A program made the translations under genes and the position numbers. DNA of 64,000 bases, from NCBI GenBank assembly GCA_010094025.1, contig ML991784.1, positions 62,001 to 126,000 on the forward strand, given 5' to 3'. A model generated the notes under the pieces. That model searched no databases, was not told where the DNA came from, and was given only the letters and a program-made list of their open reading frames with translations. Below are positions 15,581 through 34,329 of this stretch, in pieces; position 1 is the first letter of the stretch, and each line of letters begins with the position of its first letter. The DNA comes from Viridothelium virens. Its lineage: Eukaryota; Ascomycota; Dothideomycetes; Trypetheliales; Trypetheliaceae.

Positions 15581-18052
15581 ATGTCAGAGGCGGTCAACCT
15601 CGGTATCTATCAATCCCAGTCGAAACGCAAAATCTCTCGAGCGTCAGATACCGGCGAGCACGGCCTAGAGGCAAACAACCCTACGAAACGCCAGCGAGTC
15701 TCAAGAGCTTGCGATCAATGCCGCAACATAAGAGCTAAATGTGATGGCGGTCAGCCGACCTGCAAGACATGCAGTTCAGCAGGCAGAACTTGCACCTACG
15801 TGACGACGCCCAAGAAGCGCGGTATCCAAGCAGGCTACGTCCGGAGTCTTGAACTGACCCTTGCCTGGTTGTTGACGAACAATACTGGTGCTAGATGTGC
15901 GCTGCAAGCCCTTTTGAGACAGGATGATGGTCAAGGACAGGCTCTTGTGACTGGTAGGAATGTTGCAGGTGCAGATCGACTGTACGATCAATGGAGGCAA
16001 AGTGCAGTCTCGAAAGGATTAGAACTGCTGCTGTCAGACCAGGAAATACCAGATGAATTATGGGAAACACTCGATGACGAGCAAAGTGCCGGCAACGAGA
16101 CATCCGGACTCCAACGTGACTCTGCATTTGCACCTGGCCCTGTCACTCGTCCCTTTGACTCTGCCTTTCGTCCCGATCCATGCAGCCCGACGGACCCAGT
16201 AGAGAGCGAGTCTGGGATATCACCTTTGCATGATGGTGACCCTGGCCCACAGTCTTCGCATTTATCGTCATTGACCAACAATAACAGTCGTGGCCACCGA
16301 TTGTCAAAACTGGATGCCCCAAAGGACTGGCGCTTGCTCGATATCTATTTCTCTTTCACCCACTCTTGGTTTCCAATTGCCGAAAAGTCGTCTCTACTTA
16401 GGACGGCCAACTCATATCCCGAAGACGGTCTGCAAGTAGATCCGAACCTTCCAGGCTCTGGGGATCACGCTGAGTTGTGCGCGGTCCTAGCACTTGCAAG
16501 CTATCAGCAGTTGAAGGCTGCTCAAAAAGATCCGCATGCTGGAAACAATGCGCCGACTGTGGCTGGGGAGAATGCCTCCCAGCCATTGTTCCGCATAGCC
16601 TTAGGGTTGGTAAATCTTGGCAACGGCATGACTGAAGTCGGCCATATTCGAGCTTTACTACTGCTGTCATTACTGCTTCTCTATCAATTACATTATTCAG
16701 AGGCCTGGGTGCTCATTGGCTTCGCTACACGGCTCTTGTTGGTCCTTAAGCCAGATATCGATGCCATGACGGACAGTCTCAAGCGTGCCGCAATGGGATG
16801 CGTAATCCTCGATACCATTCTTTCCGCACGTCTTGGAAAAACGCCATATCTTCGTAAAGGTGATATAGCATGTTCGGGGTTTCGTCTGGCCGACGGATTG
16901 GATGAATGGCAGGCATGGAACAACAGTCAACATGGCAGTGGTGACATTGGTTCTCAGATAGGTCTGCGCTACACACCTGGACACACTCTGAGTATATTTA
17001 GTGCTCTAGCAGAATTGGTGGGTCTCTCTGGCTCAGCCTTGGAGGATAGCCAAACGCATCAATCTCCTGAGACCTCCCAATCGCTTCGTGAGTGGGAAAC
17101 TAGACTTCCACAGGGTGTCAAGCTTGATTCCGCGCGCTTGCCGTCCACTGTCACTCCACAGCTGTTGTTGCTGCACTCTGTTTCATCCTCTATAATCACT
17201 CGATTGGAGCAACCGAATCAACTCGACAACGTCCGGGCCAAACAGAAGTTTGCTAGTTTGTGTGAACTCTACGCCACCCAATTTGGATTTGCCTTCATGC
17301 CACCAATCCACCGACTTCTCTTCAAGGCTGTACAGCTCCCGGACAGTGTGGATACAGAGTTCGAGAGTCGAGTCGCTTCATTAATTTCGAGGTTCGATGC
17401 GTGTCACTCTTCCCTAGACGGGAAAGGGACTGAATTTCCATCCGTTTGCCAAATAAGTGATGGATTGAATCATTCTGCGATTGATCCAGATCCTCTAATA
17501 CCTAGCCCTTTTGGTAATTCTCGATCTGCCTTGTCCGCGAAGGATGATCAACGCGGTGACAGAAACAGCCTCAGAGACATTGGGTCCCACCTTGAACCTC
17601 TGAACACAGCCGAAACCATAGAACACGAGGCTCATGAGCGAGAGCAGACCCTGCGTGACTTAAGGGACAGTGGAAAGGTTTATAGCACAGACTTTGGCGC
17701 AGGCAAAATCCTGAGTACTGATCTATCAACTCCTGCTCGAATAGTGCAAAACCACGACGGACCCAGTTCAAACCTTCCAGATGGAATTGATAGCATTGCC
17801 TATACTGCACTTGCTGGGACCTCGCCAACTGATCTCGATGCACTCTTTGATGACCTCATGGATACTGACAGCATACAGGGACTGGAAATGCAGTCAGACT
17901 TCATGCAAAATCTTGGCTTTGGTCCAAGCTTTACTTCGCCCGATACTTTTTTTGAGCAGTATGATCCTCTGATCTTAGCACACATCCCAGCCAATTGGCA
18001 GTCATCTTCTCTCCCTTCTAGTCAGCCGTTCGACTCCAGTCATCCCAGGTAG
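15581..18052 (+). CDS. qutA: Quinate pathway activator QutA / QA-1F (Zn2Cys6)
   Basis: This is the transcriptional activator of quinate utilisation; it binds a 16-bp palindrome in the pathway promoters. It has 823 residues in a single exon. The Zn2Cys6 cluster has cysteines at residues 44, 47, 54, 61, 64 and 71 with C-x2-C-x6-C-x6-C-x2-C-x6-C spacing. It is followed directly by the PKKRGIQAGYVRSLELTLAW linker typical of QutA/QA-1F. A fungal transcription-factor middle homology region follows (about 240-480). The C-terminus is acidic with many Asp, Ser and Gln residues. Upstream ATGs at 15546 and 15552 are out of frame, so 15581 is the start. The position next to the repressor and upstream of the dehydratase gene supports the call. 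Confidence 0.94.
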   Translation: MSEAVNLGIYQSQSKRKISRASDTGEHGLEANNPTKRQRVSRACDQCRNIRAKCDGGQPTCKTCSSAGRTCTYVTTPKKRGIQAGYVRSLELTLAWLLTNNTGARCALQALLRQDDGQGQALVTGRNVAGADRLYDQWRQSAVSKGLELLLSDQEIPDELWETLDDEQSAGNETSGLQRDSAFAPGPVTRPFDSAFRPDPCSPTDPVESESGISPLHDGDPGPQSSHLSSLTNNNSRGHRLSKLDAPKDWRLLDIYFSFTHSWFPIAEKSSLLRTANSYPEDGLQVDPNLPGSGDHAELCAVLALASYQQLKAAQKDPHAGNNAPTVAGENASQPLFRIALGLVNLGNGMTEVGHIRALLLLSLLLLYQLHYSEAWVLIGFATRLLLVLKPDIDAMTDSLKRAAMGCVILDTILSARLGKTPYLRKGDIACSGFRLADGLDEWQAWNNSQHGSGDIGSQIGLRYTPGHTLSIFSALAELVGLSGSALEDSQTHQSPETSQSLREWETRLPQGVKLDSARLPSTVTPQLLLLHSVSSSIITRLEQPNQLDNVRAKQKFASLCELYATQFGFAFMPPIHRLLFKAVQLPDSVDTEFESRVASLISRFDACHSSLDGKGTEFPSVCQISDGLNHSAIDPDPLIPSPFGNSRSALSAKDDQRGDRNSLRDIGSHLEPLNTAETIEHEAHEREQTLRDLRDSGKVYSTDFGAGKILSTDLSTPARIVQNHDGPSSNLPDGIDSIAYTALAGTSPTDLDALFDDLMDTDSIQGLEMQSDFMQNLGFGPSFTSPDTFFEQYDPLILAHIPANWQSSSLPSSQPFDSSHPR

Positions 18053-18268
18053 TGCTGTGTTGCAGCGACCAGGCTTCGATGCGGGAAGACACGGCGGCTC
18101 TTTCCCCAAGGGGCCCGGAAAAGTCTTTTGCCGGGATCCGACCAATCATGGCCGCGCTTGATTATCGTCTGGACTGCTCTTGCCTCCCATCCATAACAAT
18201 CATCTCGCGGTATGTTTCTCTAAAGAACACCCGCGTCATGCTCCAAGTTAAATCGACTTTCATCCAAA

Positions 18269-19303
18269 ATGGCTTGCAGGCCTGCGATTACGTCCATGTC
18301 CCTTGGCAGAGCCTGGGCCCATGAATTACCAACCAAGTTTGCTGAAGCAAACAGATACGGCATCCAGGGTATCGAACTATTCTACGAGGATCTTGAACAT
18401 CTAGCGAAGTCTCTGCCCGGCGGTGCCTCCGAGGAAAACCTTCACACTGCTGCTCAAGAAGTTCGTTTCTTATGCGATCAGTATTCATTAGCGATCATCT
18501 GCCTCCAACCTTTCATGCTCGACGAGGGGCTCGTTGACCGGATCGAGCACAAAGCGAGAATTAAAAAATTACATTTGTGGCTTGAGCTTGCCCGGATACT
18601 TCGGACCGATCTCATTGCCATCGCTTCCAGCTATCTTCCAGTCGAAAGGATCTCTTCTGATATCAACCTCATCATCTCAGACCTTCAGGAAGTTGCGGAC
18701 CTCGGAGCTCAACGCTGTCCACCTGTTCGTTTTACGTACGAAAGTCTTGCATGGGGAACACGAGTGGATACCTGGGAAGTATGCTGGGATATCGTTCGCC
18801 GCGTCAATCGGCCCAATTTTGGCATCTGTCTGGACACCTTCAACATTGCTGGCAGGGTCTATGCTGATCCAACCGCTGATACGGGCATGACAACGACTGC
18901 AGAGACGGATATCGAAAGTTCCATAGAACGACTCATCCACACCGTCGACGTGTCAAAAATTTTCTACGTACAAGTAGTGGATGCCGAAAAATTGAAAGAG
19001 CCATTACTTCAAGAGCATGAATTCTACAATTCTTCTCAGCCTCCACGCATGAGTTGGTCGAGAAATTGTCGGCTTTTCTATGGTGAAGATTCTCTTGGGG
19101 CATACCTCCCCATTCAAAGACTCGTACGAGCTATATTTCAAGATCTGGGATTTAGGGGCTGGGTAAGCATGGAACTTTTCAACCGGGATATGGCAAGCTC
19201 GGATCCAACGGTACCAGCAGATCACGCGAGGAGAGCTTTCAAGGCGTGGAACAAGATTGTCGAGGACTGCAACTTGAAGCATATACGAGATGCACAGCTC
19301 TAG
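18269..19303 (+). CDS. qutC: 3-dehydroshikimate dehydratase
   Basis: This enzyme dehydrates 3-dehydroshikimate to protocatechuate, the last step of the quinate route before ring cleavage. It has 344 residues in a single exon, close to the usual length of the fungal QutC/QA-4 type. It has a xylose-isomerase-like TIM barrel: the N-terminus contains AITSMSLGRAW and GIQGIELFYEDL, the middle has GICLDTFNIAGR, and the end has GWVSMELFNRD with the metal-binding Glu. It starts 216 bp after the activator gene on the same strand and is convergent with the permease gene. Confidence 0.95.
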   Translation: MACRPAITSMSLGRAWAHELPTKFAEANRYGIQGIELFYEDLEHLAKSLPGGASEENLHTAAQEVRFLCDQYSLAIICLQPFMLDEGLVDRIEHKARIKKLHLWLELARILRTDLIAIASSYLPVERISSDINLIISDLQEVADLGAQRCPPVRFTYESLAWGTRVDTWEVCWDIVRRVNRPNFGICLDTFNIAGRVYADPTADTGMTTTAETDIESSIERLIHTVDVSKIFYVQVVDAEKLKEPLLQEHEFYNSSQPPRMSWSRNCRLFYGEDSLGAYLPIQRLVRAIFQDLGFRGWVSMELFNRDMASSDPTVPADHARRAFKAWNKIVEDCNLKHIRDAQL

Positions 19304-19909
19304 GTACTATGTATTCGGCTTCTTCCTTTTTGTAATGATCACGATGGCGTTGAGATGCATAGCTATTTGTTGGCTTCATCAAAGAGAGCGAGCGCGAACT
19401 CTTCACATCTGTCTTGACTTAACTGGTCTAAAATTGACCTCTACTCAAGCATAGGCTTCGTACAACTTTGTTCCCAAAATTTTCTATCTACAGACTGGAG
19501 CTTGTTTGTGGAAAGACGTTATTTGTAACACATTCTCTATTTAGCTTGATGGGAACTGCTAGAGCATTTCATAGACGAAGGATCTATTGTCCGTCGCTCT
19601 GAATTATGACCGGCAGGCCTTCGGAGTACATTGAGGTTAAAATTTCAGCCAAAATCCATGTTCGTGGTACTCAGACTGGTCGATATCTCATGCCCAAGTG
19701 TTTCGAGCCCCGTTAATATCACTATTTAAGGACTGACAAGAGCTCAACAAGGCGTCAAACAGAAATCGTCAAAGGCCTCCTAAGGAGTCCTATTCTGGCT
19801 TTGCTTAATCGATGTGGGCCCTGACCGGACCCGCACGGGACTTCAAATCTCAGCTTGCCCTGCAAACATTTGCCCTGAGCCCTTGATGGCTGGATAAGGG
19901 TACCGAAAG
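19304..19909. other. Convergent intergenic region qutC/qutD
   Basis: These 606 bp lie between the 3' ends of the dehydratase and permease genes. They are A/T-rich, with no coding frame of interest. The region presumably holds both polyadenylation regions. Confidence 0.5.
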
Positions 19910-21744
19910 CTAGCGCTTCTCGACGTCCTCAACATATTCTGCCTCCTTTGTTTTCTCCACACTCAAGTCTGCACCTTCTGCATCGTGTCGGAAGCTTTCC
20001 TCCTCTGCTCGCACCTCAGCCATAACCGTACTGTGGGCCCTCTGGACGGGTTTTATGTCGAACAATCGATCCATGAACTCGAGAGGGACGCCCTTGGTCT
20101 CAGGAACGAGCAAATAGACAAACACAATTGACACAACCATCATTGACGCAAAGAAAAAATAAACTCCGCAGCCAGACCTACCCATGGTATTAAACATTTG
20201 AGGGGTAAAACGTGAAATGATGAAATTCCAAAACCAGTTATTAGCAGATGCAGAAGCCTGTCCAAGAGATCTAAAGATGGATTTCATTAGATATTTTTTC
20301 AAAAGGTTTGAGCAAGAGCTCTCCTCTAAAACATACCTAGTGTTCGAGTCGAACATTTCTGCGTTGAGAACCCACGGAGTGCCATTCCATGTCGGAGTAT
20401 AGAAGAAGGTCCAGAGATAGAAGAAAAAGACAGCAGCGATGCCTCCCGATGAAAGCTTCGCATTTGGGTCGTCGGCATGGGCGGCGGGATTGCTCTTGTA
20501 GATGTCTAACAGAAAGTAAGTCAACAAGGCTCGCTTGGCACTCAATGCCAGCGAAGTTCAGTAGACACTCACAGGCACCAATGATCCACATGCATATAGA
20601 TCCACCGAGTCCGCCGATCATAAGCAAGTTGCGCCGTCCAAAATTATCGATCAAGCAGAACAGCCAAACCAGCGTAAATACGGTCTTCACTACACCAAAA
20701 AGGCCGGTCGTGAAGAAACTAGTGTTTGTGCCGCGTATGCCAATACTTTTGAACACGGTTGGACCTTCTATATGTAAGCATTGTGATCATACGCGGGAAC
20801 GCCCCAAGGCCGAAGTACTTACTATAGTAGTTGATAGCATTAATACCTGAGCCATTCTGCCACATGAAGAGTAGACCTCCAAGCATGAATCGCCAAAGGA
20901 TCTTTCTGCTGCGGCCAACAGCTCGGAAGGGCTTCCAAAACCCTAGACCAATGCTTGATTGCTGCTCTTCTAGGGTCGCATCGATGAAGGAGACCTCTTC
21001 AATGATGTAAAGGTCTTGAGCGTCGAGGTTGCGAATCCAGCAGAGATTTCGTAAGGCTTCTTGGCGGCGGCCTTTTGACAGCAGCCAGCGAGGTGACTCT
21101 CGTATCCATAGGCTTCCAATTGCCAGTAGGCCGGCCGGGATCAATTGAACAGCGAAAGGGATGAGCCACTGGGAATGATTCGAAGGATGATGCTCGCTTA
21201 AACCGTAGTTGATCCAGAAACCTACAAGGCCTCCAATCTGCCAGCCAAGCTCATAGATACCGACCAATCTTCCTCTTACAGCAGGAGGTGCAATTTCACT
21301 GATGTAGATGGGAGTGCACATGGAAGCACCGCCAACTCCAACACCACCAAGGACCCGGCCAGCATAGATCAAGCCAAGTCCGCGAGCGCCAGTGGCGCCA
21401 AGAGTCAAGCCAGCACCAAGAATGAAAACGAGGGAGAAGACTATCAGCGACTTCTTACGTCCAAGGAAGTGGTTGAATATATAGGCGAAAAGAGCTCCAA
21501 AGAAGGCGCCCGCTTGGTAAACAGAGACAATGTTGGCTTCAACAAGGGCCAGCTTGGACTTGGACAATTCGGCGAATCTGAACTCCTTCTCAAAGGAAGG
21601 TAAAGAAAGCGTGGTCCCAATAAAAGCCGAGTCATATCCGATCATGCAAGAAGCAAAGGAAGCAATAGAGGCGCAGGCCCATACTTTCCAATTGTAGACC
21701 TGGACAGGTGTAGGCCGATCCTCAACCACAGTCAGTAGACCCAT
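19910..21744 (-). CDS. qutD: Quinate permease (MFS sugar-porter family)
   Basis: This plasma-membrane transporter imports quinate. Minus-strand exons are 21744..20823, 20767..20573, 20505..20337 and 20270..19910, all joined in phase, giving 548 residues. It has the sugar-porter layout of 12 membrane segments, with GRVLGGVGVGGAS, PRWLLSKGR, GINAINYY, the FGRRN loop and a PETKG motif near the end. It also carries the NNWFWNFIISRFTPQMF block typical of QutD/QA-Y. The first intron joins INYY to GPTVFKSIG with one Lys codon across the junction. The gene is divergent from the quinate dehydrogenase gene, with which it shares an 861-bp promoter region. Confidence 0.94.
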
Positions 21745-22605
21745 GATGGAAAATGGAAGATCTGGAGGGACGAATCTGGTTCAATATCCTTCCGGACTCG
21801 GAGCAAGCGAATGAAGGCATGATTAAGTATTGTTGCTAGTGTAACCAGCCTGGCAACAAGATGGTCTAGAGTGCAAGAGCGGTTCTGGATCCCGGCATCT
21901 TCGCGTGGAGGGTTTACTTGGCGGAATCCAAGCGCGGTTTCATTAGGGCGGGAGGATGAAAATTTTGCCCCGACCCGAAGTTAGTGTGGAGAAGTTGCGG
22001 AGAAGAAGCCGGGGTAGATTGCTTAGGTAATGCTTGAGGACTTTCAAAGGTGGCCAATGTTTTCGTTGGAGGGCTCTCTCCAGCCACTGACTCCAATTTA
22101 TCCCATACGAAGCAGAAATACGACAACTGCGTTTCATCTATGCCATTTCTTTCAGTTTCCACCTGTATAATCTCACATCAGTCTCCACTGGATACTAAGC
22201 TCCTAGATATCATTTCTAGATCTTCAACCTGGACTGGAACGTGGGAAGCCAGCAAGATCAAAAGGATCAGCCACCCCCAACATCCCTGCACCTTGGCCGC
22301 GTAAATATTTACCCAAGATTCGCAACAGCGTCCTGGGCACGCCTGCAGTCCGAAGATCCCCGTGTGATTGAATTTGGCCCAAACAATGACAACTTCCTCT
22401 CACTGCGTGGCATCATATAGCTGTGGCCGGGTATGCTGTGAATGATCTGCAGAATATTCGTGAGATTCCGTAGCAGACATCTTTCGATAGACTGCCGAAC
22501 GGGATATCAGACACCGGTGAGGCCAGGCTCTGTGAGGACTGCAGATACAACTATCTAAAGCTCAGTCGCTATTGAAAAGCTCGGATCAACCAGATTACTG
22601 AAGCC
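21745..22605. promoter_or_regulatory. Divergent promoter region qutD/qutB
   Basis: This 861-bp stretch between the permease and quinate dehydrogenase start codons has no coding signal of its own. It contains the best match in the window to the quinate activator palindrome (22299-22314). Short purine-rich patches lie nearer the permease side. Confidence 0.6.
22299..22314. promoter_or_regulatory. Putative QutA/QA-1F binding site
   Basis: The sequence GCGTAAATATTTACCC matches the published 16-bp activator consensus GGRTAARYRYTTATCC at 14 of 16 positions, and its centre is a perfect 12-bp palindrome. It lies about 290-305 bp before the quinate dehydrogenase start and about 555-570 bp before the permease start, on the divergent side of both. 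The consensus is recalled from work on the Neurospora qa cluster; binding here is inferred. Confidence 0.65.
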
Positions 22606-23601
22606 ATGGCGTTGACTTCGCATTCCGAGGATTTAGCTCACCTTGAAGGCATCAATTACCTCTTCGGCTATCCCATCTCACACTCCATGTCGCCATTACT
22701 GCATCAGACAATTTACGACGCACTTAATCTACGTTGGACCCAGCAGCTCTTTGAATCAAAAGACATGGCCAAATTCCTGCAACTGACTAGAGACCCGAAA
22801 TTCTTTGGTACGAAACCCTGAATTTCAAGCTCACGGATAATCTGTAGCTAACCAGCCTTCACAGGCGCATCTGTCACGATGCCTCATAAGGTCTCAATCG
22901 TTTCTCATCTTGATGCACTCGAGCCTGCTGCTACTGCTGTCGGCGCTTGCAACACTATCTTCGTCCGCAAAGACCTTAAGACTGGTCAGCGCCGGCTCAT
23001 CGGCACCAACACTGACGTTGTCGGAATTCGCGATGCCTTCTACCAGAATGTTCTCAATCCTAAGGAAGTATTCCAAGAGAGACCAGCTCTGGTCATCGGA
23101 GGAGGTGGTGCTGCACGAAGTGCAGTATATGCGTTACGGAATAGCATGCAAGTAAGCAAGATATATCTCGTCAACCGTGACGATTTTGAAGTCGACGCTG
23201 TCATGGCTCACTGCAAGGCCAATGGTTTTGGTCAGGACCTAATACACGTTAGAGACTTGAAACAGGCTGAAAGCCTAGAAGGGCCCGGAGCCATTGTGGC
23301 ATGTGTCCCGGACTTTCCACCCGTCACCGAAGCAGAAAAGACAGCACGATCCATCTTCCAGTGCTTCATACAGAAAAAACATAAAGGCGCGATCTTGGAA
23401 ATGTGCTATCATCCTCATCCTTGGACTTCCATAGCAGAAATGTCGCAAAGAGCCGGTTGGCAGGTGATACTGGGTACAGAAGCAATGATTTATCAAGGAC
23501 TGGAGCAGGATCGATATTGGACAGGCCGACAGATAAGTGACATGCCAGTCGAACAGGTTAAAAAGGCGATAGCTAGCAAGCTCTCGAAGTCTAAATTATG
23601 A
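22606..23601 (+). CDS. qutB: Quinate/shikimate dehydrogenase (quinate catabolism)
   Basis: This enzyme oxidises quinate to 3-dehydroquinate with NAD, the first catabolic step. Exons are 22606..22807 and 22865..23601, giving 312 residues. The substrate-binding SHSMSP motif is in the first exon. SVTMPHK with the catalytic Lys, GACNTI and GTNTDVVG with the catalytic Asp follow the junction. The NAD-binding GGGGAARSAVYAL Rossmann loop comes after. Length and motifs fit the fungal QutB/QA-3 group rather than the AROM-derived repressor, which lies in the same cluster. It ends 50 bp before the end of the qutG gene, on the opposite strand. Confidence 0.95.
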
Positions 23602-23650
23602 AGTACGCACTCTAACGAATTGACTGCAATACCAAAATTTTCGACCGCAT

Positions 23651-25132
23651 CTACCCTCCCGGTCTCGAGTAATCAAGCGTTCTTACTCTCCGCCATACTT
23701 CCCGAACAGTACGCTCCTGACCCTGTCGAGCTGACTCGTCCGAAGACGGACCGGCAGGCCTATTAGATGATTGTCAATCAGCCACACGGTATACCTACTC
23801 GGTCATCTTTACTCACCGAATCGCGAGATACAGGCGGCTACCAAGTTTTGCAGGCTCGATCGGTGCTTTTAACGGGTCGTCAGGAGGATTTGCCGTCGTT
23901 ACTAGACCTCCAGCTTCTTGCAATATGCATATACCAGCCGCCACGTCCCTAAGGAAGCCTCGTCAATGAAAATTTATATCTATTCGCGTTCTCCACCTAC
24001 TTACCATTCCCAGCACCCTCCTTCCCCTAGTTCTGGATGTCAGTGTCACGAAGCGAAAGGTGCAGACAGAAACAAAGCTTACACCAAATGTCAAAAGCGC
24101 CCATCGCACAATATGCGAGATCCATTGTCGCACTATCTTGTGCTCAGTCTGCGTCAGCAATGATCCAAGATCTTGAACTCACCTGCCCAGACTCCTAACG
24201 CCATGAACCATCCCACCCTTGCCTCCTCTCGACCCAATCTCTGCTGCCATGTTCACAAGGCTCTCTACCTTTCGTTGCATGTTCCCATCGGGACTGTCCC
24301 TCCGATCTTTGCCCCATTCGAAGGAAAAGATACATCCCTTTGGCGCACTTGCAGGCATGGGTGGAATGGGATTACGCACAAGTGGAAGTTGCTGTGTCTC
24401 ATTCATCCATGCGCCTCTGCCTTTACAGGCGGAGAACATTTGATCAACAAACGGAGCATAAACAACGCCAATTGCTGGTTTATGATCGACAATGAAGGCT
24501 ATGCTAACACAAAACATGGGGAAGATGTGTATCATGTTCACAGTACCTAGACGTATTAGTAAAGCATCAGCGGCATGGTCATCAGAGTGCTCTTAAGATC
24601 CATACCGTCCAGAGGATCGACACACCACGTCGGCCTCTCGTCGATCAGATAATTGCGGGAAGCTCCCTTCGAGTAAGTTTCTTCTCCAATGAATCTACAT
24701 CATCAAAAGAATTAGTTGAGCTGGGTGGTCGGGTATGTAGGAAATCAGTGGGTCTCGAATAGGTGTAAAGGAATATTGAAAGAGAAATTTGTGCAATGTA
24801 GATCAAAGACTCACTGGTGGGATGGATATTCTATAGAGACACGATGTTTGATGAAAGCTTCCACTTCTACAGGACAGTGAGTTCAGCTAGATATTTCGCC
24901 ATCGTCTTAGGCATCTATAAGAAAATTATGGCAGAAGAAGAATCCTACCTTCATCTACCTTGGTGACCAGATCGACTGCGTTGTCCTTTTCAACAAACTC
25001 TTGAGAATGGCTTGGTTTGGTATCTGTGCTGCCGTATCGGGATTTTACTGACTGGAGCAGCAGTTGGCCGGCATCTTTGCCTAGTTGAACAGCAAATTGA
25101 TATATGCTCTGCAATTCCTCCGTACTTGCCAT
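23651..25132 (-). CDS. qutG: Inositol-monophosphatase-like protein QutG / QA-X
   Basis: This is the conserved qut-cluster member of the inositol monophosphatase superfamily; its in vivo substrate is not established. Eight minus-strand exons were reconstructed: 25132..24949, 24866..24815, 24694..24606, 24546..24183, 24132..24083, 24026..24005, 23948..23817 and 23759..23651. They total 333 residues and end in a stop at 23651. Metal-site motifs GEETYS, DPLDGT and WDVAAG are all present; the last lies on the seventh exon just after a 22-bp exon encoding WEGGCWEW. Phase is kept at every junction. Seven introns is far more than in its neighbours (none to three). It is divergent from the dehydroquinase gene with 268 bp between starts. 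Confidence 0.88.
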
Positions 25133-25291
25133 ATTAGAACTGAGAAAATCGTATTGAGAAAGATATTAATCTAATCTTTCTCACAACGGCATTCCAGAAG
25201 TTTAAACTTGAGTATTCCACTCGGCTACGTCCGCTGGTAACCGGCAAAACCCGTGATTGGCGTGAAGAGATTTCGTCAGTGCTCCACAGTA

Positions 25292-25307
25292 TGCAAAACA
25301 TTTATCC
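25292..25307. promoter_or_regulatory. Putative QutA/QA-1F binding site (one strong half)
   Basis: TGCAAAACATTTATCC matches the activator consensus GGRTAARYRYTTATCC at 13 of 16 positions. The right half TTATCC is perfect and the left half weaker. It lies in the 268-bp divergent promoter between qutG (start 25132) and the dehydroquinase gene (start 25401), about 94-109 bp before the latter. The position supports co-regulation; binding is inferred. Confidence 0.5.
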
Positions 25308-25400
25308 GAAAGAAGCTATGGGCATAATTGATAAGTTCTGAGGAATTGCGATAATGGACCAGATCACACAGCTGTTCGACATACTAGCCGACCTACCAGA

Positions 25401-25862
25401 ATGGCGAAACACGTGCTCCTGATCAATGGGCCAAATCTAAACCTCTTAGGAACGCGAGAGCCTCATATCTACGGCAGCACCACGCTCTCAGATGTGGTTG
25501 CAAGTGCAGAAAGACAGGCCGATGACCTATCAATCCAGATCTCTCATTTCCAATCGAATCACTCTGGGGCGCTGATCGATCGAGTCCATTCCGCGCGTGG
25601 CGAAAAGGTCGACGCAATCATTATAAATGCCGGCGGCCTCACCCACACCGATGTCTCACTTCGCGATGCTTTGGCTGGTGTTGCAATCCCTTTCATCGAA
25701 GTTCATGTGACGAATGTCCATCGAAGGGAAAGCTTCAGACATCATAGCTTCCTCAGTGACAAAGCCGAGGCCGTCATTGCTGGTCTCGGTGTTTACGGAT
25801 ATACGGCAGCCATCGAATTCGTTGTGAGGCACCTGAGGACTAGCGAGCTCGCAAGACTCTAG
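25401..25862 (+). CDS. qutE: Catabolic type II 3-dehydroquinase
   Basis: This enzyme dehydrates 3-dehydroquinate to 3-dehydroshikimate in the quinate breakdown route. It has 153 residues in a single exon, the normal size of the type II dodecameric enzyme (QutE/QA-2). It carries the active-site lid and tyrosine region [18 protein letters not shown] near the N-terminus, then [17 protein letters not shown], and then [20 protein letters not shown] with the catalytic His and substrate-binding Arg. The mechanism is unrelated to the type I domain of AROM, so the two pathways can run separately in the cell. Confidence 0.97.
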
Positions 25863-26076: not shown

Positions 26077-27026
26077 TCATTTAAACTGCCACAGCCTCCG
26101 AGGGTTATCCACCCAGATTTGCCGTACCAGCGTCTCATCGCCGTTACACCAGTCTATGCACTGTCTCAAGAATCCAACGTCATCGACTTGCCTGTAATCC
26201 TGATGTTTTGTTCGGTCACCACCGAGAACTCTCTCTACTCCCCCGGAATGCGGCCAATCGGAGGCCCACACAATCTGCGTCGGCGCCAGGCCGATGATAT
26301 CCTTGGCATATTGTTCCAATCCTGGCATATTTGAGAACCGATAGGTCCCGCTAAACTTGGTCCAGACTTTGCGTTCTTTCAACAAGTCCATGAATTCGGA
26401 GTACCCCGCCTGCTTGGACGGTGCAATTGAGGGTTCCGGCTGAGCAAGATGATCCAGTACGACTGGGACTCCTAATTTTGGGATTTCGTCTGCGAAAAGA
26501 GCAAGCTGAGGAAGAGAGATGAAGATTTGTAATACCCAATTCAAATGTCGTATTCTGTCCGCGTATAAATGCAATATATCGGCAAAGGCCTCTTTGCTCA
26601 AGGTCTGCGACCGTGTCCTGAGGTTCATCCTTACGCCACGCACACCTAACTTGTGCATTTTCGAAAGCTCGTCGTTACCAATGGTCTTTGGATCGATGCA
26701 AGCGACAGCTCTTCCCTGGCCTTTCAGTTTCCCAAGAGCATCCAGATTAATAGAATTGTCCGTATCGTAAACAGACATTGCTACGAGACAAACATGATCG
26801 ATACCAAGCGATCTCTCAAACTGTAATAAGTCATCAAGATCCGCTTTCTTTGGTCTATATGGATAATTAGGAGCAAACGGAAATTTTTCCTAGGAATTGA
26901 CGATTGGTCACATCAGCTTTTAATTTTTGTTCGGGTTGAGCAAGCATGGTACCGCACCTCATCCACGACATGAACGTGCGAGTCCCAAGCGCCAGCCGGC
27001 AACTTATACTTATCGGAAGATTCCAT
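26077..27026 (-). CDS. Amidohydrolase-2 family lactonase (COG3618; PDC hydrolase/fuconolactonase-like)
   Basis: This is a TIM-barrel metal-dependent hydrolase. Members of this family open lactones such as 2-pyrone-4,6-dicarboxylate, L-fuconolactone or 4-sulfomuconolactone. Minus-strand exons are 27026..26958 and 26889..26077, giving 293 residues. The first exon supplies the N-terminal HVHVVD metal motif and was recovered from the splice sites; without it the protein would lack its active site. Later motifs are VRGVRMNL, VVLDHLAQP (His), KFSGTYRFS and ASDWPHSGG (Asp). It starts the group of catabolic genes beside the quinate cluster, 214 bp from the end of the dehydroquinase gene (convergent). 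The true substrate cannot be read from sequence. Confidence 0.85.
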
Positions 27027-27959
27027 TTCTATTGCTGAGGAAAAGGAAGAGAGCTAATTATCTTGAGATTATTAAAGCCAGTAGGATGCTTTTCTTTACC
27101 TCACGTGGACAATTTTCCATAGTCAGCCAATCAGTAGGGGTGTACAGACATCGGGAGCGAGAGCAATGTAATCAGAAAGAATTATTGCGTTGCCCCTGGT
27201 TTTTGGAGTAAATTGATCCTTTACTAGAATCTCTGTGACATCACCGATACATCTACGTCATTCGGAAAAATGGCTACTCCAAGACTCTAGTCGTCTTCGA
27301 TATTTGTAATGTGCATTTTATGCACGGAACAAAATCCAGTCCATTACTGGCCCTGAAGGAGGTCTGTTGGATTGTGGTGGACGTTTTGCGGAACGTTGAA
27401 TCTCAGATTTTATCGAGAATATCATTCATACGTTTGAGACCTCCCCACCGAAGAATGCCGAGAGTTCCGGTGGCAGGCAGGTATTTTACTTTACGAATTG
27501 GACAAGGGGTCGGTGCTGAAGGACATACCTGTGTGTCACTCAACATCGGTCAAGACTTTGAACAACCCACTGGTCTTCGTTAGCGTTCCACACAAAATGG
27601 GCATATGGTCGTAGAGTGTCAAAGTAAAGATACCTACTGTATATTGGAAAACACCATCGAGATGCTTCGAGCGGTATTAGCTCCATCCAGTCAACCGAAG
27701 CAGGGGTCTCGGCGCCGCCGAAGTTATCCGCATCATTACCCCACAATCTCATTTCTGCTCGCTGGGTGCTCCGGTGAAGACTTAAGCCGCATAGAGCAGG
27801 CCGACCCGGAGAAGTCGTACTAGAGTAAGGTCTACGATTGCAGCTAAGTAGACTTTCAGCTCCAAACAAAATGTTCTACGTATCCATCACTTCAACCTCT
27901 AATCTGATTGTGACATGGTAGCTCTTGACCTCTTCGAAATAGGTTATGTTGTCTGAGCT
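27027..27959. promoter_or_regulatory. Divergent promoter region of hydrolase and MFS transporter genes
   Basis: These 933 bp separate the start codons of the amidohydrolase and the transporter. No exon could be supported in either direction, and no good match to the quinate activator site was found. The stretch is A/T-rich towards the hydrolase. Confidence 0.45.
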
Positions 27960-29807
27960 ATGTCCTTTACACTTTTCAGTTCCCGCAAGAGCGAGGTGGC
28001 TCAGATTGAGACCGCTGGCTTGGACCATCACGATGATGCTCTGGATGTAGAAGCTAAAGGGTACGCCGACGCTTCGATACAAAAGGAGAATCAGGCGGTC
28101 CTCGACTCCGATGAGGCACAAGTGATCCAGCGCAAATATCTACGAAAACTCGATTTCATCATTTGCCCCACTATCTCGTTCCTCTACTTCTTTGAGTATC
28201 TGGACAGAGGCAACGTTGCTGTACGTGATAATCTCCTGCCTTGCGCTTTGAATATAGCTGAACAACCACTTGATAGAACGCGAAATTGTACGGGCTCGAT
28301 AAAGGCCATGACACCAGTAATGGAGGTGTTGGACCGGGGAAGCAGTCCCTTTCCGCCACTCAGTGGGAGGTCGTTATCATGCTTTTCTACGTTGGCCTCA
28401 TTCTCTTCCAAGTCCCTGGTTGCATAGGATATCGTCTTGTCTCCCCCTCGAAGTGGATCGCCTTTAGCGTTTGTTTCTGGTGTATCACCTCCATGCTTCA
28501 GGATGTTGCGACCAACTACGCCAGCCTGCTCGTCTGTCGAATATTTCTGGGGGCCTTCGAAGGCCTGTTCGGTACCGGTATCGTGTATTATCTGAGTATT
28601 TGGTACCATCGTACTGAGCTCGGCCTCAAAGTTTTCTGGTACCTTGGACCCACAGCCATTGCGGGAGCCTTCGGAGGCCTAATTGCATACGGAGTCGGGC
28701 ACATCAAACGGTCAACGCCACAGTGGAAGTGGCTCTTTCTCATTGAGGCGCTTCCAGGATTCTGCCTCGGTCTTTTTTGTCTGTACTGGCTGCCGGACCG
28801 TCCAATGAAGAACAGTAGGTTCAAGGGAAAGTATCAAGAAGTTGCTGTTGCTCGTTATCACGCAGAGACGGTGGATAGAACCGGCCCAATTCAACAAAAG
28901 CATGTTATATGGGCAATTCAGGACTGGAAATTGTACGCGCAAGGTATGATATCCGAATGATCGACTCTCATGAAATGGTCATCCACTGACCAGTTGATAG
29001 CACTGATATACTTTCCCACGGCTGCTCTCCTCTCCTCCATCTCTGGGTTCTTACCGACGATCGTATCTGGTAGGTAGTTTTATGCGAGCAACGTTCTAGA
29101 TGAAAATATTAACAGCAGTCTAGAACTTGGATACAAGTCTGCAACGAGCGCCAATTTGATGACAGGTAGCTCAACTCCAGGGATTTCTCTATCCATCAGT
29201 ACTGAGCATTCCTATAGTGCCACCATATGCATGTGCTTTCGTGCTCATGTTCGTTACTTCGTGGACTTCTGATCGCTACAGAGATCGAGGCATGCATATT
29301 GTTGGATTGTCGGCAATCTCCGCAATCTGCTTCCTCATTATTGCCAATCTAGCAGAAGATGCATTACATGCCAAATATGCTCTAATCGTAAGTCGCTGGT
29401 AACGATTTGTCCGAGTGGATTGCTTGTAGATCAACTGACCTTCGAAGTGTCTCTCAACCGCTTGCGTCTATTCCACATATCCACCCAGCCATGCATGGGC
29501 CGCCAACAACTTTGGCAACGAAACAAAACGAGCGATCGGCTTGGGCATTTATACCGCGCTTGGCAATATGGGATCCATCGCAGGTTCATTCTTTTATCCT
29601 ACCACGGATGGCCCCATTTATAGGAAAGGTCACTATTTGTCGTTCGGAATGTCACTTGCTGCCCTCGTGTTTTCACTCGTAAACAGCTTGACATTGCGTG
29701 CTGTCAACCGATACCGGGACAAAAAGTATGGAAAGCCAGTGCCTGGCCTGGCCATTGACGTTACAGATAATGCGGACAACCTGCCGATGTTCAGATTCAT
29801 TACGTAG
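27960..29807 (+). CDS. MFS transporter, anion:cation symporter (allantoate permease-like) family
   Basis: This is a membrane transporter of the fungal ACS/Dal5-like group, which carries small organic anions such as allantoate, nicotinate or tartrate. Exons are 27960..28220, 28277..28943, 29001..29069, 29124..29165, 29218..29387 and 29448..29807, giving 522 residues. Family marks are the KYLRKLDFIICP start of the first segment, FEYLDRGNVANAKLYGL, RIFLGAFEGLF, WRW-like PQWKWLFLIEALPG, and the ending DNLPMFRFIT, close to the usual FRYx terminus. Junction phases all agree. The last intron uses an AAG acceptor. It stands divergent from the lactonase-like gene, which suggests it imports the substrate of that module. 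Confidence 0.85.
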
Positions 29808-30076
29808 GTACTTCGAAGTCTTTGGAGAGCGTGCGATAAGAAAGGTTGCTCTCAAAGATAATATGATCGTTTCGAGACCTTGGTTAAGCCCCGCGGAATG
29901 GGTGAAGCTGAAGAAGAGCGTTGAAGGTATCAAACATTGGTTCTTCTTCAATAGTATATTGAGCTCTTATCCACGGTCTTGTTGCTGACGGATTTCGGAA
30001 CAAGCGGATGTCAAAATATTGACTGCTTCTGATAGCGCCCAAAATAAAATTAGTTCGCCGTTCGATGATGCTCTTG

Positions 30077-31150
30077 CTAATTCAATAATCTTGCATCACT
30101 TCCAACGGTCTTAGCAAGCTCGTGGAGACTTTCGATCTCATTTCCCGTAAATGGTATTCCGCCTTCCCGTTGGACCTTCATCTTGGCATCTTCGATTTCT
30201 CCTGGTGTGAAGATTTGTGTGACACCAGCGGCTTTTTCGGAGCTTCTTACTCGTTCGAGCAGCGTATCCATCCTCTCGAGGTACTCTTCTTTCGAATCGA
30301 GGAATACCTCGGGCCGGAACACCATGAACCAGTGGCCGACACCTTGACGCTTGTCAAGAGTCTTGTACTGATCATTGACATCACCACCAAATGACGATCC
30401 CGTTAAGAGGCCTCCAAAAATGTCCATCATCATGGCCAGCCCTGAGCCTTTCGGGCCCCCAATCGGCAACACCACACCTTTCAACGCCTCCACCGGATCA
30501 TTCGTATCCCTCCCCTCCGCATCAAGCGCCCACCCCTCTGGAATCCTCTCCCCTCGCCGCGCCGCCTTCCGGATCTTCCCCCTCGCCACAACCGACGGCG
30601 ACATATCCAAGACAAACCCCCCCTTCTCCCCACCCGGCAGCCCGACAGCAAACGGGCTCGTCCCCAGCAGCGGCTCCCGCGCGCCCCACGCCGGCATCGC
30701 CCGGCTCGCGTTCGTAAACGCAAAAGCTGCATATCCCTTCTCCATCGCGCGCAGCAGATAGCTCGCCGCCATGCCGTAGTGCCCGCTGTTCCTGACGCCT
30801 ACGATGCCGACGCCGAACGTCTCTGCCATGCGCACGCCGTGGTCGATAGCGAGCGCGCCCGCGACGAAGCCGAAGGTATGGTTGGCGTCGAGCAGGGCCA
30901 TCACGGGTGTCTTTTGGGTGAGCGGGAGGGGTGGGTTGGGCGCGAGGACGCCGTGCTGGATCCGCGCAATGTAGCCGGGTAGGCGGTTGAGGCCGTGCGT
31001 GTCGACCCCCCGAAGGTCGGCGAGGACGAGGCAGTCGGCGATGGTGTGGGCGCGGTCGGCGGGCACGCCGCTGTGCGTGAGGATGCTGGTTGCGAAGGCG
31101 TGGGCTTGGGTGGGGGAGATGTTGGTGGTGGGAGGGGGTTCCGTTGCCAT
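30077..31150 (-). CDS. Ldh2-type malate/lactate/ureidoglycolate-like dehydrogenase
   Basis: This NAD(P)-dependent oxidoreductase belongs to the Ldh_2 (type 2 malate/L-lactate dehydrogenase) family, whose members oxidise 2-hydroxy acids, ureidoglycolate or sulfolactate. It has 357 residues in one exon, of normal length. Conserved parts are ADLRGVDTHGLNRLP with the catalytic His, VRNSGHYGMAASYL, LGTSPFAVGLPG, and the GGPKGSGLAMMMD nucleotide-binding block. The middle of the gene is very GC-rich compared with its neighbours. It is convergent with the transporter gene (269 bp between ends). The substrate is unknown; the neighbours suggest a 2-hydroxy acid. Confidence 0.88.
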   Translation of the reverse strand: MATEPPPTTNISPTQAHAFATSILTHSGVPADRAHTIADCLVLADLRGVDTHGLNRLPGYIARIQHGVLAPNPPLPLTQKTPVMALLDANHTFGFVAGALAIDHGVRMAETFGVGIVGVRNSGHYGMAASYLLRAMEKGYAAFAFTNASRAMPAWGAREPLLGTSPFAVGLPGGEKGGFVLDMSPSVVARGKIRKAARRGERIPEGWALDAEGRDTNDPVEALKGVVLPIGGPKGSGLAMMMDIFGGLLTGSSFGGDVNDQYKTLDKRQGVGHWFMVFRPEVFLDSKEEYLERMDTLLERVRSSEKAAGVTQIFTPGEIEDAKMKVQREGGIPFTGNEIESLHELAKTVGSDARLLN

Positions 31151-31977
31151 TCTTTTTTCAATGATTTCAAATCTTACCGTTTTTGATCGAAAGATATAGT
31201 ATCATTCCTCAAGACGAGCATCCAGCCGCTATAGTTTAAGATACGACGCTCTGACACTAAGGAATTGAGGTATGGAAGAACGAATGTGTCGATGCTCGTG
31301 CTGCCCACCTCGGTTGCTTCTTGACCGAAGCGTGAAGATCATCTTGCCGGTTTACCGCATCCTTGTAGTAGAAAGAGGGTTTTCGGATTACCACAACAGA
31401 ACTGAGCCTACCTAGAAGTTACGATAATGACGGTCCCTGCACACGTGGATGCTACGTACCCCATACTGGTGTATCCGTTGTCTTCCACAACCTCCACTAG
31501 GCATTTTCAAGTCTACTCGAAAGAAAGCTTTTGAACCAAACCCAGGGAATCACCATCTAGACGATTCATTTAGATTTCCTTCCTCTGCAACAACAGCCAG
31601 CTCTCAATCTGTACATCACGTGCGCGTTGCAGACAACAGATGTAGGAGGATGCAGTAGTGCTAGAACCTGACGCAGAGTCGATTCCAATTCAGGTAGTGA
31701 GCACAGCTTCAGCGTTGCTATCGTATATCGATCCAGAAAAGGTCACACGCATATCACTACTCAGCATGCAGCTTGCCGTAACATCTCGATAGCGGTACGG
31801 ACGAGAGCGTGGCAGATAAGTTGATGTATAGATTGGCTCTGGCGGATGCGCTTCGACTCTCATATGACTCACATTCGGCATTCCTTCCCACTGGTTCTAT
31901 GTCTCTCAGCTTAAGCCTCGCTTTCCTAGGTATGCTTAGGTATCATTCAGTCAGACCACATTCTGGGAGTTGGAGTC
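31151..31977. other. Intergenic region upstream of the Ldh2-type gene
   Basis: These 827 bp hold the promoter of the Ldh2-type gene and the 3' end of the D-2-hydroxyacid dehydrogenase gene. Only short frames without family signal are present, for example around 31449-31658. Confidence 0.45.
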
Positions 31978-32934
31978 TTAAAAAACTCGGTTGGGAACGT
32001 CTTCGCCTTCGAGGACAGCTATTAACGTTTCGACTACGGCTAGGCCGCTTTTGATCTGGTTCTCCATCGTAGAAGCTCCAATGTGTGGCGTCATTATCAA
32101 ATTTTGATTTTGCAACAGTTCCTCATACGCTTCGATCGTTGGAGGCTCGACATCCATTGCATCCAAGGCGGCCCCATATATCTTTTTGGTTGTGAGCGCA
32201 TCCGTGAGTGCTGCTTCGTCCACAATGCCTCCACGGGCACAGTTGAGGAGAATGGCATTGTTCTTCATTCGTTCAAATTGTGGTTTGCCAATCATGCTGC
32301 GCGTTGAGTCCGTCAATGGGACATGCAATGAAACAACATCAGATACGTCCAAGAGTTCTTCAAGCGCCTGCACGCGTCGATGAGGTATATCTGTCCAGGC
32401 ATCCGGGGCCGCAAAGGGGTCATAGGCCACAATTCGCCCATCCATTGCTCCTATCCATTTCCGCGCAACGACCTTGCCAATATTTCCCATGCCAATTATG
32501 CCGATAGCCTTTTGATAGAGAGATTGTCCTAGCGTTTGCGAGCGTACTACCATCTCTCCTCTTCTCACCCTGCGATCGACCTCCGAAATTCTTCTAGCAA
32601 TCGACAAAGCAAGGGTCAGTGTAAGTTCAGCAACCGATTCGCTATTTAGCGCAGGAGTGTTGCAGACAACAACACCATGGTCTTTTGCGCTCGAGAGATC
32701 GATGTTATCCACGCCGACGCCTTGCTTCACAATAACTTTCAGCTTCTTGGCTTGGGCAAGATCTGTGGGAGTGATCCTAGTCTCGGAACGGATCATGAGA
32801 CCCGTAGCATCTGCATGCCAGTTATCGCGACGAGGGTCATTCTTGAGGACGACATCGATGGATGGATTGTTTTGAAGAGCAGTGACGGCGTCAGGGTGGT
32901 AAGGATCGAGGATGTAAACGATCGGCTTTGGCAT
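31978..32934 (-). CDS. D-isomer-specific 2-hydroxyacid dehydrogenase (phosphoglycerate dehydrogenase-like)
   Basis: This NAD-dependent reductase/oxidase of D-2-hydroxy acids has 318 residues from the chosen ATG (MPKPIVYILD), which has a purine at -3 and matches the usual start of the fold. An in-frame ATG at 32982 would add 16 residues. Motifs are VKQGVGVDNIDL, the Rossmann GIIGMGNIGKVVARK, CARGGIVDEAAL with the catalytic Arg, ALDAMDVEPP with Glu nearby, and TPHIGAST with the catalytic His. There is no ACT or other regulatory C-terminal domain, so serine biosynthesis is a less likely role than catabolism. It is divergent from the RraA-type aldolase gene. Confidence 0.86.
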   Translation of the reverse strand: MPKPIVYILDPYHPDAVTALQNNPSIDVVLKNDPRRDNWHADATGLMIRSETRITPTDLAQAKKLKVIVKQGVGVDNIDLSSAKDHGVVVCNTPALNSESVAELTLTLALSIARRISEVDRRVRRGEMVVRSQTLGQSLYQKAIGIIGMGNIGKVVARKWIGAMDGRIVAYDPFAAPDAWTDIPHRRVQALEELLDVSDVVSLHVPLTDSTRSMIGKPQFERMKNNAILLNCARGGIVDEAALTDALTTKKIYGAALDAMDVEPPTIEAYEELLQNQNLIMTPHIGASTMENQIKSGLAVVETLIAVLEGEDVPNRVF

Positions 32935-33415
32935 GTCGTGTGTATCGAATGGAGCGAGTGACCGCCAGACTTGAGCATTCATCCATGGCGACAAAGAAGA
33001 TCAAGAAAGCTATCACGATTTGGAAGGATTTGACGAGGACTGTGGTATGACGATATCCCGTTATCGGATGATCAGAGCAATTAAGGTTACAGCTGCGGAG
33101 ACGTGGGATGAGGCCTCGGCCAAGGAGTCCGCCGGCCTTCTCCGCCTTGCCGTCTCTTCAAAACTTCAGCATGCGGAGCAGATCGGCATATGGTCAAGGG
33201 AAATGATGAAGAGACTGTGGATACTGCAGTCTTGACACGGGCTTGCCAAGTGTGGTTTATTGAATGAAGGTCGAAAACCAATAGTCTGCATTCATAGCAT
33301 TTTTAATCTCCTCTCTTCAAAGACCACCCACCAGCTCACTGGGTAGGTAACAAGAAATACTAGTAAATTTTTATTTGACACTTTGTGCATTTTGACGATA
33401 CTGTTACGGCACAAT
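32935..33415. promoter_or_regulatory. Divergent promoter region, hydroxyacid dehydrogenase / aldolase
   Basis: This stretch of about 480 bp separates the two start codons, so both promoters share it. No coding frame with family signal was seen and no quinate activator site was found. The part next to the aldolase start is A/T-rich. Confidence 0.45.
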
Positions 33416-34329
33416 ATGGCTTCCAAAACAGCCGTCAAAGCTCTAGAATCATTCACTACGTGAGCGTTCTATCATGCTCTAAATATGACCCTGTATTTTC
33501 GTTCTGACCCAATGCAGGTGCGATGTTTCTGATGCACTTCTGAAGCTCAAGATTCCGCATGGAGGCTTCCTTGCTGGTCTGACGATGTGGTCTCCCAAGA
33601 GGCAAGAAGGTCCTGCCAAGATCATTGGTCCAGCATACACGGTAAAATATGTCCGCAAGAACTACGATAACGAACCTAAGCCTCCTGGTCACTACGTCAG
33701 TTTCAGCAGAAATCATGCCCGATACAACAACCCTACTAAGACCAGGTAGATCGATACCATTCCAGCTGGATCTGTGGTATTTATTTCATGTCCGCCTCGG
33801 ATGATTAATGCTGCATATGGTGGTTTAATGAGCACGCGAGCCCAGTACTCAGGAGCTGTAGGGACAATCGTTGATGGGCGCGTCCGAGACTTACAGGAAC
33901 ATCGTGATCTGAATTTTCCGGTGTGTCGAAATGTGATGAGTCGTGCCTCGGCCTTCAATGGTACTAATAAATGGGTGAAGGTTTTCGCAAGAGATATCGG
34001 TACCGCATCTCCATACGAACAAGCGCGCGTGAGCGAGGTCGGTAGCTCCCTTTCCAAGAATCTCTCGATATACTGATGATTTGATACAATAGGTCAATTC
34101 ACCAGTGCGACTTCAGAGTGAGGACCAGGAAGCAGTCATCAACCCAGGGGACTACTTGATCGGTGATTTGAACGGGGTAGTTTGCCTACCTCAAGGGCTT
34201 GCGGAGAAGGCTCTGGAGCTCATGAAGTCTCAAGTAGAAGCAGACGAGAAGATTGGTGCTGACATCAAGAAAGGAAGGACATTTACAGAGGCATCAAAAG
34301 AACATAGAGCTGGTGTCAAGCAGCCTTAA
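33416..34329 (+). CDS. RraA-like aldolase (HMG/CHA aldolase family)
   Basis: The family cleaves 4-hydroxy-4-methyl- or 4-carboxy-4-hydroxy-2-oxo acids to pyruvate plus a second oxo acid; some members act as RNase E regulators in bacteria. Exons are 33416..33459, 33518..33695, 33750..34037 and 34093..34329, giving 248 residues. The active-site region GTIVDGRVRDL (Arg and Asp) and the metal-site block PGDYLIGDLNGVVCLP are present, as is the early CDVSDALLK. The third donor is ambiguous: GTCGGT after 34037 keeps VSEVN, which looks right for the family, while GTGAGC after 34028 fits the donor consensus better; both keep frame. Its place beside a lactonase-like hydrolase and two hydroxyacid dehydrogenases suggests a catabolic aldolase. 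Confidence 0.87.

Follow-up and report, generated by a model that had tools for sequence, protein, structure and literature searches.

A Conserved Fungal Gene Module Beside the Quinate Cluster of Viridothelium virens: A Candidate Pathway for the Catabolism of a Carboxylated Lactone or Hydroxy Acid

We analyzed a window of 64,000 nucleotides from the lichen-forming fungus Viridothelium virens (contig ML991784.1, positions 62,001 to 126,000), in which five genes directly adjoin the cluster for quinate breakdown (qut). These genes encode a COG3618-type lactone hydrolase, an MFS transporter of the ACS type, an Ldh2-family dehydrogenase, a D-isomer-specific 2-hydroxyacid dehydrogenase (D2HDH), and an RraA-like class II pyruvate aldolase. 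Sequence comparisons with other fungi indicate that the module is real and that it is conserved for at least three of the five genes (hydrolase, Ldh2, and RraA). We tentatively propose, at a probability that we would place a little below even, that it constitutes a catabolic cluster, conserved among fungi, that acts on a carboxylated lactone or on the matching hydroxy acid and is located beside the qut cluster. Since at least three of the five genes travel together in many fungi, the module appears to be a separate pathway and not an extension of quinate breakdown.

The gene models were assembled by reading all frames and joining exons at GT-AG introns. Five intact genes were confirmed where a preliminary description of this DNA, made from the letters alone, had placed them, with the qut cluster on the left and a housekeeping gene on the right. 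All five proteins pass the Pfam cutoffs. The 10 introns found across the five genes are 42–68 bases long, and all are of the GT-AG type. The features are as follows:

26077–27026, minus strand: COG3618/Amidohydro_2 lactone hydrolase, 293 residues, one intron (exons 27026–26958 and 26889–26077); PF04909, 105.5 bits
27027–27959, no strand: upstream region common to the divergent hydrolase and transporter genes, from the gene models
27960–29807, plus strand: MFS transporter of the ACS type, 526 residues, 6 exons; PF07690
30077–31150, minus strand: Ldh2-family malate/L-lactate-type dehydrogenase, 357 residues, one exon; PF02615, 397 bits, profile positions 1–332 of 333
31978–32934, minus strand: D2HDH, 318 residues, one exon; PF00389, 98.9 bits, and PF02826, 178.3 bits
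32935–33415, no strand: upstream region common to the divergent D2HDH and RraA genes, from the gene models
33416–34329, plus strand: RraA-like class II pyruvate aldolase, 228 residues, 5 exons; PF03737, 101.8 bits against a cutoff of 24.5
12660–25862, no strand: neighboring qut cluster of seven genes (qutR, A, C, D, B, G, E), named by family and order; listed for context and not counted as a module member

Relative to the first ATG in the open reading frame (ORF) that had been listed for it, the hydrolase starts 248 bases farther upstream. Because the gene runs from 27026 to 26077 with an intron, the ORF considered in the preliminary description lacked the N-terminal part. Along its entire length, the assembled RraA model is identical (100%) to a V. 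virens protein in the database. The three divergent or convergent pairs noted earlier are also present: hydrolase/transporter and D2HDH/RraA are divergent, and transporter/Ldh2 is convergent.

The genome (30.7 Mb, 175 contigs) was searched in six frames, a procedure that can miss divergent split genes. PF03737 (RraA) and PF02615 (Ldh2) each gave a single match, in both cases within the module. PF04909 was matched at 8 places and PF02826 at 14, some of which are exons of one gene. Linkage in other fungi was determined by searching the hydrolase, Ldh2, and RraA against a large protein set and comparing the best 120 of 541, 4715, and 532 matches, respectively, so that a missing partner is uninformative. 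Contigs were equated by identical size in bases (one Ldh2 row carries no size), and no contig size recurs within any one of the three lists. The hydrolase and Ldh2 were found to have 18 contigs in common, Ldh2 and RraA 11 (one of which is from this genome), and the hydrolase and RraA 7. Among the matches listed, all three genes are on one contig in five cases (Rhizodiscina, Mollisia, Cladophialophora psammophila, Thozetella, and Bogoriella). Species present in two lists were counted by eye, with Zasmidium cellare left out because it has two assemblies. Both genes are on one contig in 11 of the 11 named species for hydrolase–Ldh2, 10 of 10 for Ldh2–RraA, and 7 of 8 for hydrolase–RraA. An additional Ldh2 of Talaromyces proteolyticus lies on a different contig. 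The preliminary description had named a lack of conserved co-occurrence in related genomes as grounds for refutation; for these three genes, the comparison did not refute it.

On megabase-sized contigs, sharing is evidence of linkage but not of adjacency; the locus tags provide a closer view. For species with tags of one series for two module genes, again among the matches listed, the tags are close in five of six: Bogoriella (M1820_008830/008832/008833), Penicillium psychrofluorescens (9360/9358), C. psammophila (A1O5_06468/06464/06462), C. immunda (CLAIMM_08124/08122), and Pseudogymnoascus (V490_06249/06247). The numbering leaves room for one gene between RraA and Ldh2 in three of the four fungi in which both are tagged, a spacing that would suit a D2HDH, as in the window. 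The single genomic matches of RraA and Ldh2 here, together with the contig sharing of the three genes elsewhere, indicate that the grouping is more than chance. A separate observation concerns an RraA protein that is 65% identical to the fungal one and is filed under a metagenome-assembled genome (MAG) of Terriglobus roseus, on a contig of 6,275 bases; this is perhaps a fungal contig that was binned into a bacterial MAG.

The hydrolase is a TIM barrel of the COG3618 type in both sequence and model comparisons, and it is of the same fold family as LigI, the 2-pyrone-4,6-dicarboxylate (PDC) hydrolase (PDB 4d8l, 4di8). Foldseek ranks LigI first for the predicted model. The model matches LigI and Atu3138 from Agrobacterium (PDB 4mup), which we take to be a galactarolactone isomerase, equally well in fold, but Atu3138 is the weaker match in sequence, and the module has no uronate or aldarate genes. 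The catalytic site of LigI contains the HxH motif, H180, and D248, and R124, R130, Y156, and R217 are on the side of the substrate carboxylate. Of nine LigI positions compared, the window protein retains eight, including the HxH motif, H180, D248, R124, R130, and R217. The enzyme differs from LigI in that Y156 is replaced by F, in that R130 varies across the fungal family, and in its context, since no ring-cleavage, tautomerase, or hydratase gene is found in the fungal module. Among the best 120 of 541 homologues, H180 and D248 are conserved in all 120, and H31 and H33 in 81 and 84, respectively, with mostly gaps in the remainder; R124 and R217 are near-invariant among the homologues listed. 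The score against 4-sulfomuconolactone hydrolase (NF042924) is 133.1 bits, below the cutoff of 500. The residues are suggestive of a PDC hydrolase, but this identity was not assigned because Atu3138 is as close in fold. In the accessible portions of PMC8222616 and PMC12746152, COG3618 proteins are tied to regulators of aromatic catabolism, and a sequence of pyrone hydrolase, hydratase, and retro-aldolase is given for riboflavin breakdown. The latter sequence, from PMC12746152, may be regarded as an analogue of the module in its logic.

The family membership of Ldh2, D2HDH, and RraA is clear from their sequences. The closest solved structure to Ldh2 is that of L-sulfolactate dehydrogenase (ComC), with a score of 258.4 bits against NF040650, below the cutoff of 500. 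D2HDH is PGDH-like and matches TIGR01327 over positions 2–309 of 525 with 303 bits, below the cutoff of 454. An adjoining pair of L- and D-specific 2-hydroxyacid dehydrogenases is also found in the sulfolactate system, in the form of ComC (Ldh2) and SlcC (D2HDH); unlike that system, the module has an Ldh2 below the sulfolactate dehydrogenase cutoff and no sulfo-lyase gene was seen in it. The best NCBIfam model for the transporter is the D-galactonate transporter subfamily, at 129.1 bits, which is far below the cutoff of 395.

The RraA-type and HMG/CHA aldolases carry a motif of the form G-x20-R-D-x2-E/D. The form G-x20-R-D-x2-E is present in the window protein and in 120 of 120 homologues (the best 120 of 532). 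Domain and motif are thus those of HMG/CHA aldolase and the RraA-like proteins (3noj, 2c5q), of which yeast YER010C (2c5q) is the closest solved relative, with 137.7 bits. The window protein is unlike the CHA aldolases LigK/PcmE (TIGR02798) in that its score of 66.9 bits is far below the curated cutoff of 304.5.

From the gene content, the protein families, the conserved residues, and the linkage of three genes, we infer a substrate class, an order of steps, a stereochemistry, and a set of products. The ACS-type symporter would import the acid or its lactone. The LigI-like hydrolase, which has the fold and catalytic residues for such a reaction, would then open a lactone with at least one free carboxylate. 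Ldh2 and D2HDH would oxidize the 2-hydroxy group, one enzyme for each of the L and D epimers; alternatively, the two may jointly invert this group via the 2-oxo acid. In the final step, the RraA-type enzyme would cleave a 4-hydroxy-2-oxo acid to pyruvate and a carbonyl compound or, if its substrate were a 3-carboxy-2-oxo acid, decarboxylate it. This last assignment is based on the motif and on the known chemistry of HMG/CHA aldolase and oxaloacetate decarboxylase. With the γ-lactone of a 2,4-dihydroxy acid, the four enzyme types could act in sequence with no missing step: once the lactone is opened, oxidation at C2 by Ldh2 or D2HDH, depending on the configuration, would yield a 4-hydroxy-2-oxo acid. 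Such acids are the type of substrate used by HMG/CHA aldolase, whose reactions are described in the accessible part of PMC5065237. The earlier proposal of a module for import, lactone opening, oxidation or reduction of a hydroxy acid, and cleavage by RraA is supported insofar as a real catabolic module is concerned.

Overlapping enzyme sets occur together in bacterial plasmid records, often with an isocitrate-dehydrogenase-like enzyme (IsoDH) and tricarboxylate transporters. Two near-identical loci of Shinella have contiguous Ldh2, D2HDH, and RraA genes, which are three of the four enzyme kinds of the module, and this row faces genes for an IsoDH-like protein, a tautomerase-like protein, and a tripartite tricarboxylate transporter (TTT). 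The protein from strain WSC3-e passes the 4-oxalomesaconate tautomerase cutoff (500.9 versus 440). A PrpF-domain gene is near both loci, and aconitase is found in the fetched stretch of one. The Shinella Ldh2 is 48% identical to the fungal enzyme, D2HDH is 33% identical over 257 residues, and RraA is of the short form with no match to the fungal RraA at an E of 1e-3. Unlike the module, the fetched Shinella stretch has no named COG3618 hydrolase, and IsoDH, the tautomerase-like protein, and TTT are additional. The order in Roseomonas is COG3618 hydrolase, IsoDH, Ldh2, SSADH, cupin, small monooxygenase, and SerA; in Microvirga, SerA, hydrolase, IsoDH, and Ldh2 are within 12 kb. Both thus have, as in the module, a hydrolase, an Ldh2, and a protein of the D-2-hydroxyacid dehydrogenase family within 12 kb; the differences are the presence of IsoDH in both and, in the Roseomonas stretch, the lack of a named RraA and the replacement of the MFS transporter by TTT uptake.

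Neighbors were tallied over regions that were hand-picked from the best matches, with product names as annotated and three loci taken from our own scans; near-duplicates are included (Shinella WSC3-e/HZN7 and P. versutus/Aminobacter). The 17 Ldh2-anchored regions contain IsoDH in 7, RraA in 6, a tautomerase in 5, D2HDH/SerA in 4, a "lactonase family protein" in 4, and COG3618 in 1. IsoDH is present in four of the five hydrolase-anchored regions, and the five IsoDH-anchored regions contain the hydrolase in three and tetronate kinase in four. The six IsoDH proteins compared constitute one family (49–68% identical). The IsoDH-like partner has its best scores against the models for homoisocitrate, isopropylmalate, and isocitrate dehydrogenase, below cutoff in each case. 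In the tree, 21 fungal Ldh2s form one clade (100/100) next to those of Paracoccus and Shinella (85/73). The tricarboxylate transporters, aconitase, tricarballylate genes, and IsoDH-like partner in these rows favor, by analogy, a polycarboxylate resembling citrate or homocitrate over a plain sugar acid.

Three further bacterial rows are recorded here. Two bacteria of different phyla, Burkholderia arboris and a Marinimicrobia MAG, have the same row of IsoDH, MFS transporter, and COG3618 hydrolase (L020, 5466–8956; L021, 7538–10852), and their IsoDH proteins are 68% identical. A plasmid of Lichenicola cladoniae, a bacterium isolated from a Cladonia lichen, has a row of Ldh2, SSADH, and cupin, close to which are an MFS transporter and a gene of the lactonase family (L072, 2450–8850). 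In Agrobacterium pusense and Cupriavidus taiwanensis, otnK and otnC (tetronate kinase and decarboxylase) and rraA are found in rows of IsoDH-like genes (L077, 7001–15056; L060, 4437–14829). As judged from gene content, the otnK/otnC rows are a second, sugar-acid context for the bacterial network.

A number of observations weigh against the proposed cluster for a carboxylated lactone. The hydrolase (MBLNU457_4184) and RraA (MBLNU457_6490) genes of Dothideomycetes sp. NU457, the exception both in the hydrolase–RraA comparison and among the six tagged species, are on different contigs. Many RraA homologues are from fungi with no hydrolase or Ldh2 among the matches listed, so the function of RraA is not necessarily restricted to the module. 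R130 is found in 50 of the best 120 (of 541) fungal hydrolase homologues and in 11 of the 20 that are co-localized. No promoter motif common to the module was found, and no 8-mer occurs in all three promoters; CGG/CCG spaced dyads of five types are common to the two divergent promoters, a number reached by 126 of 1000 random pairs and not above expectation. In a genome scan, 25 bacterial hydrolase loci had Ldh2 in 1 and IsoDH in 6, and none of the module genes was seen to be a counterpart of IsoDH. The bacterial RraAs in the rows described above are 28–31% identical to the fungal protein or do not match it, and the D2HDHs are 33–35% identical; such low values denote a likeness of sets and are not proof of common cluster descent. 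The sugar-acid genes otnK and otnC adjoin the bacterial hydrolase/IsoDH rows. As a separate matter, transfer of the whole module from bacteria is unsupported, given the counts from the 25 loci and the identity of 33–37% between the fungal hydrolase and the four bacterial cluster members compared. Finally, the Ldh2 and RraA tags of Bogoriella are consecutive (M1820_008832, 008833), and D2HDH is therefore not between them there.

This arrangement in Bogoriella, together with the size of the D2HDH family (the 14 places matched by PF02826), is what would be expected if the hydrolase, transporter, Ldh2, and RraA were the unit and D2HDH a chance neighbor or a species-specific addition. We regard this as decidedly improbable, in view of the contiguous Ldh2–D2HDH–RraA genes of Shinella and the single intervening gene number in the tagged fungi. 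A route for sugar acids is rather unlikely but deserves more weight: the hydrolase would open a lactone derived from an aldonate, aldarate, or ascorbate, the sugar acid would be the substrate of the dehydrogenases, and pyruvate and an aldehyde would arise from a 2-keto-3-deoxy acid through cleavage by RraA. Such a route is made possible by the otnK/otnC neighbors and by the fold of Atu3138, and the best subfamily of the transporter is that for D-galactonate, albeit far below cutoff. However, R124 and R217 of the LigI type are near-invariant, and tricarboxylate genes adjoin those bacterial Ldh2s that are closest to the fungal enzyme. The module also has no sugar dehydrogenase or sugar-acid dehydratase; the LRA pathway for L-rhamnose has both, according to the available text of PMC7532622, and this pathway was rejected for that reason. 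The preliminary description had offered a sugar-acid or hydroxy-acid route as an equal alternative to 4,5-cleavage; such a route fits better.

The scavenging of PDC, taken up after its release by lignin-degrading bacteria, would have the hydrolase form 4-oxalomesaconate and RraA serve as the terminal CHA aldolase. The eight conserved LigI positions, the first rank of LigI in Foldseek, and the protein above the 4-oxalomesaconate tautomerase cutoff beside the Shinella genes are consistent with this route. We nevertheless consider it improbable, since the fungal module has no tautomerase or hydratase, RraA falls far short of the LigK/PcmE cutoff, R130 varies across the hydrolase family, and the known PDC route has no place for two 2-hydroxyacid dehydrogenases. 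Very improbable, in our estimate, is an extension of the quinate regulon in which protocatechuate is fed into a route resembling 4,5-cleavage. The module does adjoin the qut cluster directly, and LigB-family genes are present in the genome, but only on other contigs. A scan of the five module genes and of ten neighboring ORFs found no ring-cleaving dioxygenase, tautomerase, or hydratase, as the preliminary description had noted. The genome has intradiol-type genes, likewise on other contigs, and in the accessible text of PMC10406623 A. niger mutants deleted for prcA or cmcA, which are genes of the intradiol route, are stated to have impaired or no growth on quinate. No QUTA-like site with three or fewer mismatches was found in the module, in a scan of little power. 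The consensus used was that of QA-1F/QUTA, and the whole window gave 7 matches at this threshold versus 5.3 expected, with 30 of 100 shuffles reaching 7, which accounts for the low power. The suggested link between the module, quinate, and the 4,5-cleavage of protocatechuate is thus weak, and the interpretation given in the preliminary description is, as a whole, partly supported.

The best match to the QUTA consensus is the near-palindromic GGGTAAATATTTACGC at 22299–22314, in the interval from qutD to qutB. A weaker copy is located at 25292–25307, before qutE; both are possible QutA sites of this species, to judge from the letters. The one exon of qutB tested scored 26.1 versus a cutoff of 27, slightly below. 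The qutE and hydrolase genes are convergent with a gap of 214 bases, and the neighbor on the right of the module is a DUF1674 gene at 34678. No tRNA was found in a scan of the window. An ORF at 55838–56521 contains a run of unknown residues (bases N) and adjoins long, repetitive, proline/alanine-rich frames.

The enzyme families and the style of the fungal catabolic cluster are known, and the combination was not found described: no account of the gene set was found in the open PMC literature, which omits most subscription journals, and the papers listed there for hydroxycitrate, isocitrate lactone, or tricarballylate yielded nothing about it. In the accessible text of the A. niger quinate paper PMC12610400, none of the words amidohydrolase, aldolase, hydroxyacid, and lactonase occurs, and no amidohydrolase or aldolase terms were found in that of PMC12388069 and PMC10512348.

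Every kingdom has RraA-like class II pyruvate aldolases, and the role that they play in those bacteria and plants lacking genes for the 4,5-cleavage of protocatechuate or gallate is described as unknown in the sections of PMC5065237 that were available. A conserved cluster that links RraA to a lactonase and to hydroxy acid dehydrogenases turns the question of this role into a testable fungal pathway. Many Pezizomycotina, including lichen fungi, may use the carbon source to which the module points. A more specific proposal, which we offer as doubtful, is that of a pathway in eukaryotes that degrades a carboxylated lactone resembling homocitrate or PDC and ends with cleavage by an RraA-type pyruvate aldolase; a LigI-type hydrolase would open the lactone, and the Ldh2/D2HDH pair, in place of a hydratase, would make the 4-hydroxy-2-oxo acid on which the aldolase acts. 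If true, such a lactone pathway with RraA as its last enzyme would give a cellular role to the RraA-like proteins of fungi that do not carry out 4,5-ring cleavage.

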